The notes beneath the pieces are model-generated. The model was not told the origin of the DNA, did not search any database, and worked only from the letters and a program-made list of their open reading frames with translations. From positions 682,001-746,000 of the forward strand of contig NZ_JAPWDU010000001.1 in assembly GCF_027257155.1 (NCBI RefSeq): a DNA stretch of 64,000 nucleotides. The letters are read 5' to 3'. The DNA comes from Cerasicoccus sp. TK19100. Its GTDB lineage: Bacteria > Verrucomicrobiota > Verrucomicrobiia > Opitutales > Cerasicoccaceae. Of the stretch, positions 3,120 to 63,903 are shown one piece after another. Each line of letters starts with the position of its first letter. Position 1 is the first letter of the stretch. Made by a program: the position numbers and the translations under genes.

Positions 3120-5239
<2,120 letters not shown>

Positions 5240-17524: not shown

Positions 17525-18771
17525 TGAATGATGGAAAATTGAACGGTTGGTGCGTGATCAAACCGGACCCAGCCGAGTGTCCAGCGTTCGCCCTGGGCCA
17601 GCGTTGGGCAGGTCGGCGGGCGGCTCCAGGTGAGCGAGTTAGCTGATGGTTGGCTGACCGTGAAATTGCGCTGCCCGTCCCAGGTGATGGCTTCGGCGTC
17701 TTTCCAATGCAACTCTATGCGGGCGGGTGGTTCGCTGGAGGCACTGGAGCGGTGCGATAGCTGGATCTCCGTAAGACCATCTGCCTGTGGGATGGCCTGC
17801 ACTTGCCACTGTGCGGGCGCGACAGCCCCCTGCATGACCGTGTGCCAGGTCGCTTGGTCCCAGTTGAGGCGTTCGTCGCCTACCGGAAGGCGATACCAAA
17901 TAATGCCCTGACAATGATTGGGTGGCGTGCCTTGCATTGCGCGAACAAGGCTCGCCATCTCCACGGGGTTAGCGCGCACTTCCTGGTAGGTGTACTGCGG
18001 GGCACGCGCCGCAGTGGCGTCCTCAGCATTGACTTCTACCAAGGCACCTGAGGCGTCGTAAACGAGCTGGTAGCCGTAGGTCGGCAGTGCGATGGAAAAC
18101 GAGCGGCCAAAGGCACTGGCTTGCTGGGCCCAACGCAGAGATTGCTCTGCATCGCAAAGTTTCGTTGCTTTGCGATGCAAAGTAGGGCGCTGAATACTGT
18201 GGACTTGCAACACGTAATGGTCGGTTGCGTTGACCAGTGATTGAAAGGCCGAAGGTGCGGACATCCACGTGGGTAGCGTGGTGATGGAGAGGGGCGTCTC
18301 CCCGAGCACGGGCCGGAGCTGCCGGAGCCAGCTTTCGTAGCCGGCCAGCTTGCTCGTTGCGCAGTCGAAATCGATCTCGACCGCCGCGGGCTCGATACCC
18401 CGTGCACGGGCCGATTCCAGCGTGTCTTGCGTGACGCGGAGCAAGGTCTGAGTGACGTTCGCTTCCGACGTGAATGGCCCCGGGTATTGACCGACACGGA
18501 TCGCCAATGTGATCGGCTTTTGCGAGGCCACTAGGGCGTGGGCGTCGTAGGCAACACGATCCACTTTGGCACCCGCAGAGCTTGGCGTAATTTCCGCCGC
18601 AAGCACGGTAAAGCCATCGACTTGATGCTGATTATCCTCGATGGCTTGGCGGACGCTGGGCTTCCAATCGCGTTGCCAAATGTAGGCGCTGGAGGGCTGG
18701 GGATTTGCCGTGATCGTTGTAGTGGCTAATAATATGAAAAAGGATAAAAAGACTAGGGCTAACGGTGGCAT
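17521..18771 (-). CDS. DUF3142-family secreted protein, TIM-barrel-like
   Basis: The 416-residue protein has an N-terminal signal peptide and sequence typical of DUF3142: YIWQRDWKPSVRQAI near the start, AVEIDFDCATSKLAGYESWL at about residues 130-149, and SIALPTYGYQLVYDASG later. The conserved EIDFDCATS line resembles the catalytic strand of GH18-like barrels, where Asp and Glu line the sugar pocket, but DUF3142 activity is not established. It is the first gene of a two-gene unit with the TPR protein. The pair faces a thioredoxin gene across a 194-base divergent gap. Confidence 0.8.
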   Translation of the reverse strand: MPPLALVFLSFFILLATTTITANPQPSSAYIWQRDWKPSVRQAIEDNQHQVDGFTVLAAEITPSSAGAKVDRVAYDAHALVASQKPITLAIRVGQYPGPFTSEANVTQTLLRVTQDTLESARARGIEPAAVEIDFDCATSKLAGYESWLRQLRPVLGETPLSITTLPTWMSAPSAFQSLVNATDHYVLQVHSIQRPTLHRKATKLCDAEQSLRWAQQASAFGRSFSIALPTYGYQLVYDASGALVEVNAEDATAARAPQYTYQEVRANPVEMASLVRAMQGTPPNHCQGIIWYRLPVGDERLNWDQATWHTVMQGAVAPAQWQVQAIPQADGLTEIQLSHRSSASSEPPARIELHWKDAEAITWDGQRNFTVSQPSANSLTWSRPPTCPTLAQGERWTLGWVRFDHAPTVQFSIIQ

Positions 18772-19292: not shown

Positions 19293-19742
19293 ACAAAGGT
19301 TTTCGCCTGTTCTAGAAGCGTACTTCGTAACGCTTTGATATCCATGCTATAACGTTCCCATTGGATTGGGACGTTTCGTGGCTGGAAGGCTTGTCGTTCT
19401 ATATAACAGAATGGTGACAACCATGAGCGAAATTTGCGTACGAGCCACCTTTGCATTAGCAGGAAACAACTCATACGAATTAAGGTCTTATTGCGCTAAT
19501 GTTTTTTGAAAGATAATTAACTTACTGCTTGCCAAGTGGGGTGATGAGCCTAAGGATATCGATTGATCACAGTTAATCTTTTCTCTAGTTAATTCTAGGG
19601 ATTATTGGGGAATATACGAGAAGCCGCTCTTCCTAGGGGTAGGAAGGGCGGCATTTTTTTTTGTCCAAATCCGTCAAAACACGTTTGCGGATTTTCGCAG
19701 TTGCCGGGATTTCCTCCATGGCGCAATGTAAAGTTTGTGAGC
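19293..19742. other. Intergenic region before the antiporter gene, with leader-type terminator
   Basis: About 450 bases lie between the thioredoxin stop and the antiporter start. The first 300 are AT-rich with no clear gene. A strong hairpin terminator at 19623-19662 sits about 80 bases ahead of the antiporter ATG, too far from the thioredoxin gene to be an ordinary 3' terminator. It may end an untranslated RNA made from a promoter near 19560-19600 or serve as an attenuator. Confidence 0.5.
19623..19662 (+). terminator. Strong intrinsic terminator upstream of the antiporter gene
   Basis: GCCGCTCTTCCTA pairs with TAGGAAGGGCGGC (13 bp, one G-U pair) across a 4-base loop, followed by A and nine T. 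It is the most canonical terminator in this part of the window and stands in the leader of the gene at 19743. Confidence 0.85.
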
Positions 19743-22106
19743 ATGGAAAGTCACACGCCGGTGCTGATTAATGACTTGGCTATCGTGCTGATGTGCGCGG
19801 CCGGGGTGACCTTGCTCTTCAAGCGGCTCAAGCTTCCGGTATTTCTTGGGTATCTGCTTAGCGGTTTCCTCGTTGGTCCCAACCTCTGGGAGCGCTCGCC
19901 GGTGCATGACTTGGAGACGATTCAGGCTCTTAGCGAACTGGGGGTGGTCTTCCTGATGTTTTCGCTGGGGCTGGAGTTCGATCTGCGGCGCTTGCGGCAG
20001 GTACTCGGGCCCGCGATGCTGGCAATCATCCTGCAAACACTGCTCATGCTTTTCATCGGCTCGCAGGCGGCACCGCTGATGGGGCTTGGCGTGGTGCAGG
20101 GCTTGTTCCTTGGGTCGATTCTGGCGATCAGCTCGTCGATGGTCACGGTGGCGATCCTCAAAGAACTCGGGCGTTGGCAAAAGCCGCACGCGCAACTTGC
20201 CGTGGGCGTGCTGATTTTGGAAGATATTTTGGCGATTGCGCTGCTGGTGATTCTATCGGGTGTCGCGGTGACGGGTGCCTTGAACTGGGCCGCCGTTGGC
20301 GGCGTAACTTTCCTGATCTGCCTGTTTGTGGTGTTTATCTACTTCGTGGGAAAGCTCGCGGCACCGCGTCTGCTCGATGCATTGGAGCGCCACGGATCGA
20401 GTGAGCTCATCACGATCTGCGTCGTGGCGCTGATGCTCGGACTGTGCTTTGTGGCTGAGCTGTGGGGGCTTTCCGTGGCGCTGGGGGCGTTTTTGGCCGG
20501 TTCCATCTTATCACAAACGAGCCTCACCGAGCAGATCGAGCATTCTACTGAGCCGTTACGCAACGTGTTTTGCGCGGTGTTCTTCGTGTCGGCGGGTATG
20601 TTGATTAACCCCGAGACGCTGTGGGACAACGCCCTGGTGATCATTCTGCTGACGTTGGCCATGCAGCCGGCCAAGGTAATCTCGGTCTGGCTGGGGTTCT
20701 TCCTCGCCGGGCAGCGGACGGAAACCAGCTTTCGCGCGGCTACGGTAAAATCCCAGATTGGGGAATTCTCGTTCATCATTGCAGCGCTGGGGCAACAGTT
20801 GGGGGTCACGGATGCCTCGCTGATGTCGATCGCGGTTGGCGTATCGGTGCTCAGCACGGGGGGCAGTATCGTTCTCGCGAAAAACTCTGACCCGCTGCAT
20901 GCCTGGCTGGCACGAAGGCTCCCGCGCGGACTCTCGACGCTGGCGGAATTTTATCGCAACTTGCTGGACGGCTTGGGTGGGCAAGCGCAGCGCACCGTGT
21001 TGCTTAAGCTCGTGAAGCGTCCGCTGCTGCAAATTCTCTTTAATTTCCTGCTGCTCAATGCGTTTTTGCTAATCGCATCCGTGGCCAGTAACCAACTGGG
21101 GGAATACATTGAGGAGCCCGAACTACGGATGCTTTCAGGGCTCGCGGTCTGGCTTCTGGCGGGTTTGATCGCACTACCTTTTGTTACCGCGATGATCCGA
21201 AACCTCAGCGCCATCGTGATGATGATCACCGATACGATGCTCTCCACCGGGGCCACGCGCAGCTTCATCCAAGGGCGCATGCGGAATATTTTTAATGGTG
21301 CCATCGTGGTGGCGGTGGTGCTGCTCGTAGGCGGTATTTACTTGTCGGTGGCGGCGCAATACCTGCCCTCAGGCACGGCGCTGGCGGCATTTCTCCTGCT
21401 CATCTTACTGGCCGCCGTCTTCTTCTGGAATCGTATCATCCGCATCAACAGCCAGTTGGAATACATGTTTATGGAAAGCTTTAACCAGCGCGTGGTTTCC
21501 GAGGAAAAATCCCGCCGTGACGCGACGCTGGAGGCGATTGAAAAACGCTACCCATGGCCGGTCTCTGTTGAGGAGGTCACCGTACCGCCCGGTGGCAAAA
21601 TGTGCGGCCGCACGCTGCGCGAGGCCAATCTCCGCGCGGCCACGGGTGCCTCGGCCGTGGCGTTGGCGCGTGCCGGTCAAGTGCTTTACGATCTCGATCC
21701 GGACGAGATTATTTTCCCCGGAGATCACTGGTATCTCTTCGGCAATCATGGGCAGATTCGCGACGCCGTGCGCCTCTTCACGGCTGCGGGTTCGTCGTTG
21801 GTCAAGACACCCGCCGCGCCTGATCTGCGCATCGAGAAACTTTACGTGACGCGCGAGTCCCAGCTCGTCGATGAAACCCTCGCCAGCGCTGAGCTGCGGC
21901 AGAAGCACGGGGTGACGGTGCTGGGCATACAGCGCGGCGAACACCGGATTACGAACCCGCCACCGGAGGAGATCATCCACGCGCAGGACGTTCTCTATGT
22001 TGTCGGTGAAACCTCAGCGATTGAGGCGCTTCAGGCGATCGAATCCGCTGATGATGAGCTCCCAGGCACCGCTTTGGGTAATACTTCCGCCGATTACGCG
22101 GTTTGA
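19743..22106 (+). CDS. KefB-like monovalent cation:proton antiporter with two RCK C-terminal domains
   Basis: About 787 residues. The N-terminal half is a Na+/H+ exchanger (CPA2) domain with some twelve helices, including FLGYLLSGFLVGPNLWERSP and the ISSSMVTVAILKELG segment. A further membrane portion follows (residues about 420-580), then two RCK_C/TrkA_C-like regulatory domains (VEEVTVPPGGKMCGRTLREA and LYVTRESQLVDETLASAEL). It likely exports K+ or Na+ in exchange for protons under ligand control. No KTN nucleotide-binding domain is visible. ATG at 19743 is preferred because the longer reading crosses the terminator at 19623. Confidence 0.9.
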   Translation: MESHTPVLINDLAIVLMCAAGVTLLFKRLKLPVFLGYLLSGFLVGPNLWERSPVHDLETIQALSELGVVFLMFSLGLEFDLRRLRQVLGPAMLAIILQTLLMLFIGSQAAPLMGLGVVQGLFLGSILAISSSMVTVAILKELGRWQKPHAQLAVGVLILEDILAIALLVILSGVAVTGALNWAAVGGVTFLICLFVVFIYFVGKLAAPRLLDALERHGSSELITICVVALMLGLCFVAELWGLSVALGAFLAGSILSQTSLTEQIEHSTEPLRNVFCAVFFVSAGMLINPETLWDNALVIILLTLAMQPAKVISVWLGFFLAGQRTETSFRAATVKSQIGEFSFIIAALGQQLGVTDASLMSIAVGVSVLSTGGSIVLAKNSDPLHAWLARRLPRGLSTLAEFYRNLLDGLGGQAQRTVLLKLVKRPLLQILFNFLLLNAFLLIASVASNQLGEYIEEPELRMLSGLAVWLLAGLIALPFVTAMIRNLSAIVMMITDTMLSTGATRSFIQGRMRNIFNGAIVVAVVLLVGGIYLSVAAQYLPSGTALAAFLLLILLAAVFFWNRIIRINSQLEYMFMESFNQRVVSEEKSRRDATLEAIEKRYPWPVSVEEVTVPPGGKMCGRTLREANLRAATGASAVALARAGQVLYDLDPDEIIFPGDHWYLFGNHGQIRDAVRLFTAAGSSLVKTPAAPDLRIEKLYVTRESQLVDETLASAELRQKHGVTVLGIQRGEHRITNPPPEEIIHAQDVLYVVGETSAIEALQAIESADDELPGTALGNTSADYAV

Positions 22107-22255
22107 TTCGCAGAGCACCAATTGGGGCACCTGATTTTCGTTTTGGGTGTGCCGGAAGTGCTCGAGGACTTTGCCTAGGTGTTTCATGCCACGAAACCTA
22201 GGTGTATTGTGTCTGTTTGCCCATAGGTTTCGTGACAGTTTGACTATGGGCAAAC
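22107..22255. repeat. Interleaved and competing inverted repeats downstream of the antiporter gene
   Basis: Three overlapping palindromes lie here. CACGAAACCTA (22190-22200) pairs with TAGGTTTCGTG (22224-22234). GTTTGCCCATA (22215-22225) pairs with TATGGGCAAAC (22245-22255), interleaved with the first. GACAGTTTG (22234-22242) can instead pair with CAAACTGTC (22251-22259). The second and third compete for the same bases, so alternative structures are possible. No gene is seen in this stretch. Confidence 0.65.
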
Positions 22256-22615
22256 TGTCTGCCCTAGCCGGTAACGGGCATTTATTCTGAGCGCCAAAGG
22301 CGCGGGCTTATATTAGCCTAGGGTTAGCAAGGAGCAAAGCGACGCAGCGCAGCCCTAGGAAGAATGAACAAAGTGTTCTTGGAGTGCTGAAAGCACGGCT
22401 TCATCGACCTTGTTGAGGCCGCCCCTTTAGGGCTTAGACGACTGGTTTGCGCATGACACCTAGGGCTGCGCTTCAGTCGCGCTGCGACTTGCGCTGACCC
22501 TAGGCTAGTATGGGATCGCACCTTTGGTGCTTATCTTCAAGGACTTATGAAAATCCAACTTGAGAGTGATTTATTCTTTTGATTACGTGTCTGTCCTAGC
22601 CGGTAACGGGCATTT
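22256..22615. repeat. Hairpin-array repeat element bounded by a 28-bp direct repeat
   Basis: A 28-bp sequence (starts TGTCTGCCCTAGCC, one mismatch) occurs at 22256-22283 and 22588-22615; the second copy contains the last codons and stop of the YCII gene. Between them lies a palindromic element: arms at 22291-22359 and 22459-22530 are imperfect complements sharing TAGCCTAGGGT and GCGCAGCCCTAGG. Inside are short hairpins: GCGCCAAAGGCGC, GTGCTGAAAGCAC, GCCCCTTTAGGGC and GCACCTTTGGTGC. I recall similar modular hairpin elements between genes in PVC-group bacteria, but cannot name a family. It looks inserted at the 3' end of the YCII gene. Confidence 0.75.
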
Positions 22616-22883
22616 CGCAAAGTTCGGCGGAGCCGCCATGCAGCAATACCGGATGCACCTCAAGTAGCTTTAGCACTTGCGCGCGGTCTTCGGCCTTAAA
22701 CTGCATGAAGCCGGATATTTGATCTGACGGCTGCGCGGTCTGATCCCCCAGCAGCCAGCGCTCACCCAAGGCGCTGCCGCCTTGGAATAAGCCACTGGAT
22801 TGCGCGCTCTTAAAAAACGCCTGCCAATCGTCAGCCGAGGCTTCTGATTTGGCGTTTCCGTGGATGAGCAGGAGATACTGCAT
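22596..22883 (-). CDS. YCII-family protein
   Basis: A 95-residue protein starting MQYLLLIHGNAKSEA, with a ferredoxin-like dimeric alpha-beta fold typical of YCII/YciI-related proteins, including SGLFQGGSALGERWLLG and PVLLHGGSAELCEMP strands. Their function is mostly unknown; some are small enzymes or stress proteins. It begins 3 bases after the thrS stop, so it is almost certainly cotranscribed with thrS. Its last five codons plus stop form one copy of the 28-bp repeat, so the 3' end borders the repeat element and could have been altered by it. Confidence 0.75.
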   Translation of the reverse strand: MQYLLLIHGNAKSEASADDWQAFFKSAQSSGLFQGGSALGERWLLGDQTAQPSDQISGFMQFKAEDRAQVLKLLEVHPVLLHGGSAELCEMPVTG

Positions 22884-62003: not shown

Positions 62004-63044
62004 ATGCCTGACGACGCAAAAGGAACCGATTACTTGGCCCAGGTGCTCGAAGCACCCGAGACCGCCGTGGAAAAAGCGCTACGGCCGCTGAGCTTTGCGG
62101 ACTTTAGCGGGCAGGGCAAAACCAAGGAGCGCCTCGAAGTGATGGTGGGGGCCGCCAAGTCGCGCGGTGAGCCGTTGAACCACATTTTGCTGCACGGTCC
62201 GCCCGGGCTTGGCAAAACGACGCTCGCGCACATTTTGGCCAACGAAATGGAGGCCGACCTGAAGCTGACCAGTGGCCCCGTCATCGACAAAGCGGGTGAT
62301 TTGGCTGGCCTCCTCACCGGCTTGCAGGAGGGCGACATCCTCTTCATCGACGAAATTCACCGCATCCCCAAAAGCGTGGAGGAGTATCTTTACTCGGCGA
62401 TGGAAGACTACCGGATCGACATCATGATCGACCAGGGGCCCAACGCCCGCAGCGTTCGTTTGTCGATCCCGCGCTTTACGCTCGTTGGCGCAACGACGCG
62501 CACTGGCCTGCTCACTGCGCCACTGCGTAGCCGCTTTACCCTGCAGACGCGTCTCGATTACTATGATCGCTCGACGCTGGAGAAAATTGTCCGACGCAGT
62601 TGTAAGCTGCTCAATGTGCCGATCAACGACGCTGGTGCGACCGAGGTTGCTGGGCGGGCCCGGGGCACACCGCGCATCGCGAACAATTTGATCAACTTCG
62701 CCCGCGACTATGCACAGCAGCGCTCGGACGGCGAGATTACCGGCCCCGTTGCTGCCAGTGCCTTGGAGCTACTCGAAATCGACGCCAACGGCCTGGATGA
62801 GATGGATAAGCGCATCCTCCGTCTCATGGCGGAGAACTACCGTGGCGGTCCGGTCGGCCTTGGCACGGTGGCGGTCGCCGTTGGCGAGGAGCAGCACACT
62901 GTGGAGGAAGTCCACGAGCCGTACTTAATCCAAGAGGGCTACATCGCCCGCACCCCGCAAGGCCGCGTGCTAACCCCCAAGGCCTGGACCACCATCGGCC
63001 TCAAACCGGAGAATCCCGGCGGGCAAAATTCGTTGTTTCAATAG
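62004..63044 (+). CDS. ruvB: Holliday junction branch migration helicase subunit RuvB
   Basis: RuvB is the hexameric AAA+ motor that drives branch migration with RuvA. The 346-residue protein has Walker A HGPPGLGKTTLAHI (64-77), Walker B DILFIDEIHR (111-120), sensor 1 ATTRTGLL, the arginine-finger region APLRSRFT and the C-terminal winged-helix domain (YRGGPVGLGTVAVAVGEEQH). Full length. ruvA and ruvC are not in the window, so ruvB stands alone here. Confidence 0.98.
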   Translation: MPDDAKGTDYLAQVLEAPETAVEKALRPLSFADFSGQGKTKERLEVMVGAAKSRGEPLNHILLHGPPGLGKTTLAHILANEMEADLKLTSGPVIDKAGDLAGLLTGLQEGDILFIDEIHRIPKSVEEYLYSAMEDYRIDIMIDQGPNARSVRLSIPRFTLVGATTRTGLLTAPLRSRFTLQTRLDYYDRSTLEKIVRRSCKLLNVPINDAGATEVAGRARGTPRIANNLINFARDYAQQRSDGEITGPVAASALELLEIDANGLDEMDKRILRLMAENYRGGPVGLGTVAVAVGEEQHTVEEVHEPYLIQEGYIARTPQGRVLTPKAWTTIGLKPENPGGQNSLFQ

Positions 63045-63053
63045 TCTAAGGGT

Positions 63054-63110
63054 AGGGCGCAGTCTCCAGACAAGCCGACAGCATCTTGCTGGACTGTTAG
63101 TTTGCGCCCT
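63054..63110. repeat. Long imperfect hairpin between ruvB and the methyltransferase gene
   Basis: AGGGCGCA (63054-63061) pairs with TGCGCCCT (63103-63110), and the inner CAGTC/CTCCAG-type segments (CAGTC...CAAG with CTTG...GACTG) extend the stem. It lies between convergent genes, has no long T run, and begins with the GGTAGGGC word that appears in several other intergenic repeats here. It may be a repeat unit that also slows transcription. Confidence 0.55.
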
Positions 63111-63177
63111 GTGCAAATTGTGGTGAGCGGTCTCCAAGTGCCAGCCTCGTTGATTGGCATTTGCACGATGTGCAAAT

Positions 63178-63903
63178 CTAACGGTCCAGCCGGAGGCTGG
63201 CGCGAAAGCCCACAAAGCTCGGGTATTGATTGGTTCGCTCGTAATACTCTGGAAACTTCTCCTTGGCTGCTTCAATCATGCGGGCCTCGCGGAGATCCTC
63301 GATGACAAAGCCGTTGGCGAAAAGCGCCTGCGCAATATTTTCGAAGGTGTGGTGATAAGCGGTTAGGTCCATGCCCGCCATTTGAAATTGATAAGGGTCG
63401 TTGTGAAAATAGGGTCTGACCTTGCGCCCGTCGTCTATGCGCGTGCCCATGCTGGTGACTTCGTCCAGTGGGTGATGCATCGAGAAAACCAGTTGGCCGC
63501 CAGGCTGAAGAATACGCGCGATTTCCGCGAACACCGGTGCGAGATCCTGCTCGTAATGGACGACGAGCGCGCTCACGATCAGCGCAAAGGAGTCTGCGGG
63601 GTAGGGCGTCGATTTGATATCGGCCACGCAGAATCCGATGTCGGGGTTTTCCCCGCGGGCGATATCAACCAGCGATTGGGAAAAGTCGGCTCCAGTCACA
63701 TCGAAACCGCGATCTTTAAGCCAGCGGGAAAGCAGGCCGCTGCCGCAGCCGAGGTCCGCGACTTTGCACGGGGTAATCCCCGCGAGCAGCGCCTCGATCA
63801 TAGGCTGGTCGAGATAGCGGTTCCAGGCGCTGTCTTGTTCGCGCCCGCGCTTGGCATGGTAGGCGACACCGAAGCGGTCATACATTTCCTGATTGGCTTG
63901 CAT
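63178..63903 (-). CDS. Class I SAM-dependent methyltransferase
   Basis: About 241 residues from ATG 63903 (MQANQEMYDRF); an in-frame reading continues to the window edge but is less typical. Motif I reads KVADLGCGSGLLSRWLKDRG, then DVTGADFSQSLVDIARGENP, SFALIVSALVVHYEQDLAPV and QPGGQLVFSMHHP. The HHP after motif III and the long C-terminal helix are frequent in small-molecule methyltransferases such as ubiquinone-type ones. Substrate unknown. Confidence 0.88.
   Translation of the reverse strand: MQANQEMYDRFGVAYHAKRGREQDSAWNRYLDQPMIEALLAGITPCKVADLGCGSGLLSRWLKDRGFDVTGADFSQSLVDIARGENPDIGFCVADIKSTPYPADSFALIVSALVVHYEQDLAPVFAEIARILQPGGQLVFSMHHPLDEVTSMGTRIDDGRKVRPYFHNDPYQFQMAGMDLTAYHHTFENIAQALFANGFVIEDLREARMIEAAKEKFPEYYERTNQYPSFVGFRASLRLDR

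Follow-up and report, generated by a model that had tools for sequence, protein, structure and literature searches.

What has placed the last codons of a gene on both sides of a cluster of hairpins? The question is raised by a locus of Cerasicoccus sp. TK19100, within a stretch of 64,000 nucleotides that was analysed as a whole (the window, in whose numbering positions are given). Here a 28-nt direct repeat (copies at 22256-22283 and 22588-22615, plus strand) is 27/28 identical at a spacing of 332, the sole mismatch being a C/T at position 7. An initial annotation had described a 28-bp repeat 332 bases apart, which agrees in coordinates and spacing save for that one mismatch, and had rightly stated that the repeat takes in the end of a YCII gene; copy 2 overlaps the gene's last codons and so takes in the 3' end, with the stop, of the minus-strand ORF at 22596-22883. 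We arrive at a reading to which we assign a probability of about 60%, and which is drawn from sequence comparison: the locus would hold a non-autonomous element of two layers, with the frame of a Y1 transposase cassette inside and the ends of an IS5-family insertion sequence outside, and the 28-bp repeats would be tandem junctions of such ends.

The hairpin array and its surroundings

The ORF at 22596-22883 encodes 95 aa and ends CEMPVTG-stop. Its match to Pfam YCII is weak (E 0.015; 16.2 bits, under the cut-off of 24), and we therefore label it YCII-like. Its convergent neighbour is a Na_H_Exchanger/TrkA_C antiporter ORF (19605-22106, plus strand). Upstream of the array lies a second hairpin repeat, family C (22167-22259), which reaches copy 1 of the 28-bp repeat; family C forms clusters of units like GTTTGCCCATAGGTTTCGTG in both orientations, with convincing copies only in the genome of origin among the four searched.

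The element itself, termed type A, extends end to end from 22267 to 22596 (plus strand, 330 bp), between two TA dinucleotides. The left-border TA (22265-22266) lies within a CTAG in the sequence, and the right-border TA (22597-22598) is also part of the gene's stop codon, which reads CTA on this strand and takes two of its bases from it. Six hairpin stretches follow one another on the plus strand: an outer short hairpin h1 (22291-22303; GCGCC-AAA-GGCGC, with the foot CTGA), a long CCTAGGG hairpin H2 (22317-22359), an inner short hairpin h3 (22384-22396; GTGCT-GAA-AGCAC), then h3' (22421-22433; GCCC-CTTTA-GGGC, with a four-pair stem), a second long CCTAGGG hairpin H2' (22459-22504) and an outer short hairpin h1' (22518-22530; GCACC-TTT-GGTGC).

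When these six stretches were folded one by one and the element was scanned with a minimum stem of 5 bp (6 bp proved too strict), the hairpin array that had been claimed here turned out to be real; the 330 nt hold five perfect stems of at least 5 bp, in excess of 200 random stretches of the window (mean 1.26, maximum 4). Folded whole as single-stranded DNA, the element gave a z of -6.7, and none of 100 shuffles folded as well. This best fold pairs the left half with the right half, so that the separate small hairpins represent an alternative fold. The only ORF of at least 60 aa wholly inside the element encodes 65 aa, and there is no transposase gene; the length of the element matches that of copies that likewise have none. 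A scan found no promoter-like sites, and one terminator-like site compared with a shuffle mean of 0.9. As it now stands, the element most likely has only a passive role: two convergent transcripts would carry its strong hairpins at their 3' ends, and a mild effect on these ends is possible.

A dispersed family with two-ended copies

The array had been proposed to be a mobile element inserted beside the gene, and the search for further copies bears this out. With 22240-22630 as query, the genome of origin (G000) returned 39 matches, the longer ones 77-83% identical, which we grouped into about 18 places, including fragments and places close to a contig end; the element is thus not unique to this place. 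Among 54 genomes surveyed, G000 included, type A was present in two of three congeners (G001 and G003) and absent from the third (G002) and from all 50 other relatives. It is also absent downstream of the orthologous gene in two congeners, as described below. Besides the window copy, both ends could be placed for eight type A copies, and six of these measure 316-329 bp; the outliers are L024, shortened to 203, and L102, which at 589 carries a nested insertion. A search with a 13-mer pattern was discarded as too unspecific (91+83 places, compared with 66+50 in the control).

The nested insertion in L102 (G001:C35) has ends GAGCACTTTTCATCTAGATTGGCC and lies, by eye, in the CCTAGG hairpin of that copy. 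A piece resembling a GAGCACTTTTCATCTAGATTGGCC-type end was also seen by eye just downstream of the YCII-like gene in G001 (L096, about 3400-3430), and a second element that targets CTAG may therefore have struck there too.

Y1 transposase genes inside the array

Searching G000 for Y1_Tnp gave eight matches, two of which sit inside a type A array, on C1 and C4. On C4 the Y1 gene (159821-160135) is flanked by parts 34-165 (before) and 220-302 (after) of the element query. On C1 (Y1 gene 63034-63375) BLAST matches the left arm only, and the right arm and hairpin order were read by eye. In the cassettes L099 and L100 the transposase gene lies, again by eye, between h3 and h3'. Both the C1 and C4 proteins score above the Pfam cut-off for Y1_Tnp and below the NCBIfam cut-off for IS200; the C4 protein fails to align with the others at its N-terminus, and that copy therefore looks decayed. 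A Y1 gene on C31 of G001 is set in the same hairpin order with other letters (by eye), and the arm upstream of that gene bears a weak likeness to type B, a second hairpin family (70.7% over 123 bases).

The arrangement extends beyond the genus. Scanning named genomes with the C1 protein yielded six relatives, one from Sumerlaeota, four from Verrucomicrobia and one from a planctomycete. Five of the six show, by eye, a short-long-short series of hairpins, the gene, and a second short-long-short series, with extra hairpins upstream in two of these five (L187 and L188); the sixth cassette is cut on one side by a contig end. All ten aligned Y1 proteins carry the HVH motif, and the residue at Y+4 is Q in nine of them and R in the C4 copy.

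Since the two halves of the array frame Y1 genes, the window copy, itself lacking a Y1 gene, corresponds to the same cassette without its gene. By its sequence, the interior of the window element is the hairpin frame of a Y1/HuH (RAYT-like) cassette whose transposase gene is missing.

IS5-type ends and TA borders

Well-kept type A copies begin GGGCCAACGGACATTC and end GAATGTCCGTTGGCCC. The ends GGGCYAACGGACATTC / GAATGTCCGTTGGCCC are common to type A, to type B and to an IS5 copy (L162). With at most two mismatches, the end motif was found 45 times in G000, compared with 5 for the reversed control, 23 times versus 2 in G001, 6 versus 1 in G003 and once versus 2 in G002. Pairs of the motif 220-221, 297 and 314 bp apart bound the type B family, and one further pair, at a distance of 839 bp, encloses an IS5 transposase that lies in two frames. 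Against NF033580 (cut-off 110), the second ORF of this copy scored 142.5 and the first 76.8, below the cut-off. The IS5 element is complete once in G000, which also has pieces of it at two contig ends; further pieces occur in G001 and G003, as type A does, and G002 is without either.

Borders were tabulated for 20 copies with both ends placed, the end motif serving to fix the ends; places with one end only or at a contig end were left out, as were the type B loci L178 and L180. TA lies on both sides of 12 of the 20, and the same dinucleotide on both sides of 14. For type B the borders are TA/TA in 8/10 copies; for type A, the window copy excepted, they are TA/TA in 2/8, with the same dinucleotide in 4/8. 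The type B copy at G000:C7:43057-43276 (L170) interrupts the CTAG of one type A hairpin and the other arm is uninterrupted, so that the two arms offer a natural filled/unfilled pair of one target, with a TA duplication. Together with the Y1 cassettes, these data favour, with somewhat better than even confidence, the view that type A is a chimera in which a Y1 hairpin frame is carried inside an IS5-type miniature transposon.

The 28-bp repeat and the end of the YCII-like gene

Placed in register with the type A family, each border of the window element reads as a right-end position, TA and a left end, and the 28-bp repeat coincides exactly with the two ends of the element. Copy 1 runs TGTCTGCCC-TA-GCCGGTAACGGGCATTT. 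Its right half, GCCGGTAACGGGCATTT, forms the diverged left end of the element (22267-22283), which departs from the consensus GGGCCAACGGACATTC by several base differences and one inserted base; against the family left ends it scores 14, and of 9129 window positions sampled, 0.044% reach that value. As left end, the two repeat copies rank second and third among 112 readings of CTAG on both strands of the window. Near 18753, a CTA followed by GGGCTAACGGTGGCATG has a left-end score of 17, above both repeat copies; this CTAG-adjacent stretch is a possible decayed left end near a thioredoxin-like ORF (named by eye).

The left half of the repeat is a different matter. The right-end position of the element (22581-22596; family GAATGTCCGTTGGCCC) is strongly diverged, and the half does not resemble the family right end to a significant degree, 5.1% of positions scoring as well. 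This weakens a reading of the repeat as a junction, and a true 28-bp duplication still has a place among the explanations. The 21-base core of the 28-mer, searched in four genomes with up to three mismatches, occurs only at these two places, exact in both; its reversed control gave one place in G000 and two in G002. The core as a wider end variant was rejected on this count.

End repeats of at least 14 bp were found at two other tabulated copies. The 18-bp repeat of L105 duplicates that element's own right end, immediately outside the left one, and the 14-bp repeat of L004 is the left end of a type B copy next to it; the two can be read as precedents for each half of the 28-bp repeat, as the ends of neighbouring elements. 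Copy 1 is thus probably the right-end stub of a lost neighbour, a TA and the left end of the window element. As an explanation of the repeat, the target-site duplication of unusual length suggested by the initial annotation is not the best one, because the usual border duplication is TA and the right half resembles a left end; the 28-bp repeat probably consists of diverged right-end/TA/left-end junctions from neighbouring copies rather than of a long target duplication.

The YCII-like gene has matches in 5 of 104 genomes, its own included. Three orthologous C-termini were read (a fourth hit, in G057, is a fragment and was left out); they end EMPKS, EMPKT and EMPRT (CEMP[KR][ST]-stop), compared with EMPVTG in the window. 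BLAST likeness to the gene in both congeners begins at window positions 22608 and 22609, the first bases of GGGCATTT. G001 and G002 have the orthologous gene with no array downstream, and their flanking intergenic DNA does not align. An exact empty site (TGTCTGYCCTAGCCGGTAACGGGCATTTCGC, with one copy of the 28-mer) was not found at any orthologous locus, and the gene was not found below thrS in G003 (4.1 kb) or in six family members (about 2 kb each). The proposal that the repeat was formed from the end of the YCII gene therefore probably has the direction reversed, as the orthologue ends and the start of BLAST likeness point to the element: the last codons and stop of the gene (VTG-stop) were probably supplied by it. 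The diverged C-terminus could nonetheless be native rather than element-derived, three orthologue ends having been read.

Discussion

Several known systems resemble parts of this element. TIRtrons/TIRYT were described as a Y1 gene framed by inverted, partly self-complementary repeats that are also dispersed alone (PMC3733652, 2013), and a Y1 gene between inverted hairpin arms was found here at C1 and C4 of G000 and C31 of G001, with the arms read partly by eye. Like the gene-less repeats described in passages of that paper, the window interior would work as a frame without its gene; unlike TIRtrons, this frame is bounded by IS5-type ends. The relevant passages of PMC3733652 describe REP units adjoined to unrelated stem-loops, and no wrapping in insertion-sequence ends. 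Class 3 of TnpA_Y1 is characterised, in the passages on it, by several unusual high-copy hairpins round the gene and a Q soon after the tyrosine (PMC6006769, 2018). The present cassettes are alike in having several hairpins around the gene, a high copy number and a Q shortly past the tyrosine, at Y+4 in nine of ten proteins here; the four dashes printed before Q in that part of the paper could mean +5. Compared with the CnGA foot given there for class 3, CTGA is found at the outer left hairpin in 6/7 type A copies and not at their other hairpins. The fit to class 3 is thus partial.

REPINs and REPtrons (class 2 TnpA_REP) consist, according to PMC3116915 (2011) and PMC6006769, of inverted hairpin units that have no gene and presumably descend from the frame around a Y1 transposase, a description that fits the present element as well; unlike the REP doublet of those accounts, it has six hairpins in about 300 bp. 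No GT[AG]G hairpin foot was found at seven type A copies, the C1 cassette and five MAG cassettes (C4, C31 and type B not being part of this count), and the Y---NP signature of class 2 TnpA_REP occurs in none of the ten aligned Y1 proteins. Identity with class 2 REPINs was accordingly ruled out where tested, there being neither a GT[AG]G foot nor NP past the tyrosine. The ends and TA borders shared with the 839-bp IS5 copy recall IS5-family MITEs (NCBIfam NF033580), which are unlike the present element in that its interior, of which there are two sequence versions (A and B), derives from Y1 cassettes and is unrelated to the insertion sequence.

From the family, the cassettes around transposase genes, the common ends, the TA borders and the orthologue gene ends, all observed directly, an origin in two layers can be proposed. 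The inner layer would be a Y1 frame, h1-H2-h3 / h3'-H2'-h1', which lost its transposase gene between h3 and h3'; the outer layer would consist of IS5-family insertion-sequence ends, and insertion would take place at CTAG with TA duplicated. We infer that an IS5-type DDE transposase acting in trans cut the outer ends and so spread the gene-less cassette. The window copy would then have inserted between the antiporter gene and the YCII-like gene, which converge on this gap, and its ends would have decayed after landing, if the order of events is as we suppose. The 28-bp repeats would be right end-TA-left end junctions of neighbouring, presumably tandem, copies that were for the most part deleted. 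On the right side, a deletion would have fused the gene, at the common GGGCATTT, with the left end of the following copy, and with the joint at this point the last codons and stop (VTG-stop) would derive from the element. Counting against this origin, the window right end is not recognisable as a family end, TA borders are poor for type A (2/8), the stretch at 18753 outscores the window left end, and the IS5 transposase is in two frames and complete only once in G000.

A rival explanation is a true duplication of the target, in which a 304-bp body (22284-22587) inserted at a 28-bp staggered or repaired break and the gene end was duplicated. The left flank does run unbroken through copy 1 and the right flank through copy 2, and it speaks for such an event that the 21-base core was found nowhere else in four genomes and that the left half lacks significant likeness to the family right end. 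The body would, on the other hand, have to start and stop just where the family ends start and stop, in a family whose usual borders are TA, and the right half resembles the family left end; none of the 19 other tabulated copies has a repeat so long, the next being 18. Members of the IS5 family are not known to make 28-bp duplications. We regard this explanation as unlikely, and give slightly less weight to a normal insertion at CTAG whose two ends were later overwritten by short gene conversion, from the opposite flank or from an empty-site allele. The length of 330 and the CTAG at both borders are those of a normal insertion, and each end of the element indeed holds a copy of the opposite flank, at the cost of two separate conversions that would presumably have had to proceed over very short homology.

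The ends might instead belong to the Y1 cassette, in which case types A and B would be moved by the Y1 transposase, and the IS5 copy would have gained its ends secondarily. The Y1 cassette on C4 has a recognisable left end, CGGCCAACGGACATCC, and the weak likeness of type B to the hairpins before the C31 gene of G001 (70.7%, 123 bases) points the same way; no such ends were seen by eye at the C1 cassette or adjoining the outer hairpins of the named-MAG cassettes. Inverted ends and a duplicated TA are what DDE elements typically show, and elements of the IS200/IS605 type are not known to duplicate their target. The DDE-typical borders and ends thus count against this assignment, which we hold to be a little less credible again than gene conversion. 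Least probable by far is a host regulatory structure, a bidirectional terminator or stable 3' RNA hairpin that was never mobile: the position between convergent genes, the fold (z -6.7) and a sub-threshold match to Rfam RF01687 would suit it, and the dispersed copies, the copies that frame transposases, the common insertion-sequence ends and a number of terminator-like sites close to that of shuffles (1 vs 0.9) would not. The two-layer element remains our preferred reading.

The match to RF01687, the Acido-Lenti-1 RNA listed in PMC2864571 (2010), covers 22290-22359 on the minus strand (32.2 bits, E 2.6e-5, under the gathering score of 37). It is the H2-h1 arm that fits the model; unlike the filing of this family by Rfam as an sRNA gene, the matching sequence here is the arm of a transposase cassette. 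Among 15 loci searched at E<=0.01, only L183 matched, and there was no match at the type A loci L002-L006, L105 and L106 or the Y1 cassettes L099, L100 and L104; G000 had a single match in a search of the phylum. Of 387 genomes in that search, 119 matched at E<=0.01 and 69 exceeded the cut-off, several having at least 15 matches; among 14 control genomes one matched, without exceeding the cut-off. Among the matches listed, 2 of 30 RF01687 loci (86 kb) contain a Y1 gene, whereas no Y1 gene lies in 14 loci from thrS and YCII-like gene neighbourhoods (42 kb) or in 45 loci of G000-G003 (132 kb), control loci that come from other genomes and are not matched. At L207, L221 and L183, loci of three genomes, RF01687 matches lie on both sides of a Y1 gene and point outward; three of these eight matches reach the gathering score and five fall below it. 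With a Y1 gene in just 2 of the 30, the association is a lead and not proof. Full-text literature searches turned up three papers that name Acido-Lenti-1, and listed none naming it together with RAYT or TnpAREP.

We tentatively suggest, at somewhat short of even odds, that Y1 frames changed mobiliser twice in one genus, types A and B becoming IS5-type MITEs, and that Acido-Lenti-1 in Verrucomicrobiota and Sumerlaeota is the outward-facing arm of Y1 cassettes and of their derivatives without a gene, and not a free-standing RNA gene. The hairpin cluster would thereby be explained as a chimera of two unrelated systems, the single-strand chemistry of a HuH transposase and the cut-and-paste mode of a DDE transposase, and the debris of such an element may rewrite the end of a gene. 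A candidate RNA family would also gain a testable origin, in that matches to Acido-Lenti-1 flank transposase genes in outward orientation in three genomes, as the DNA ends of a mobile cassette would.
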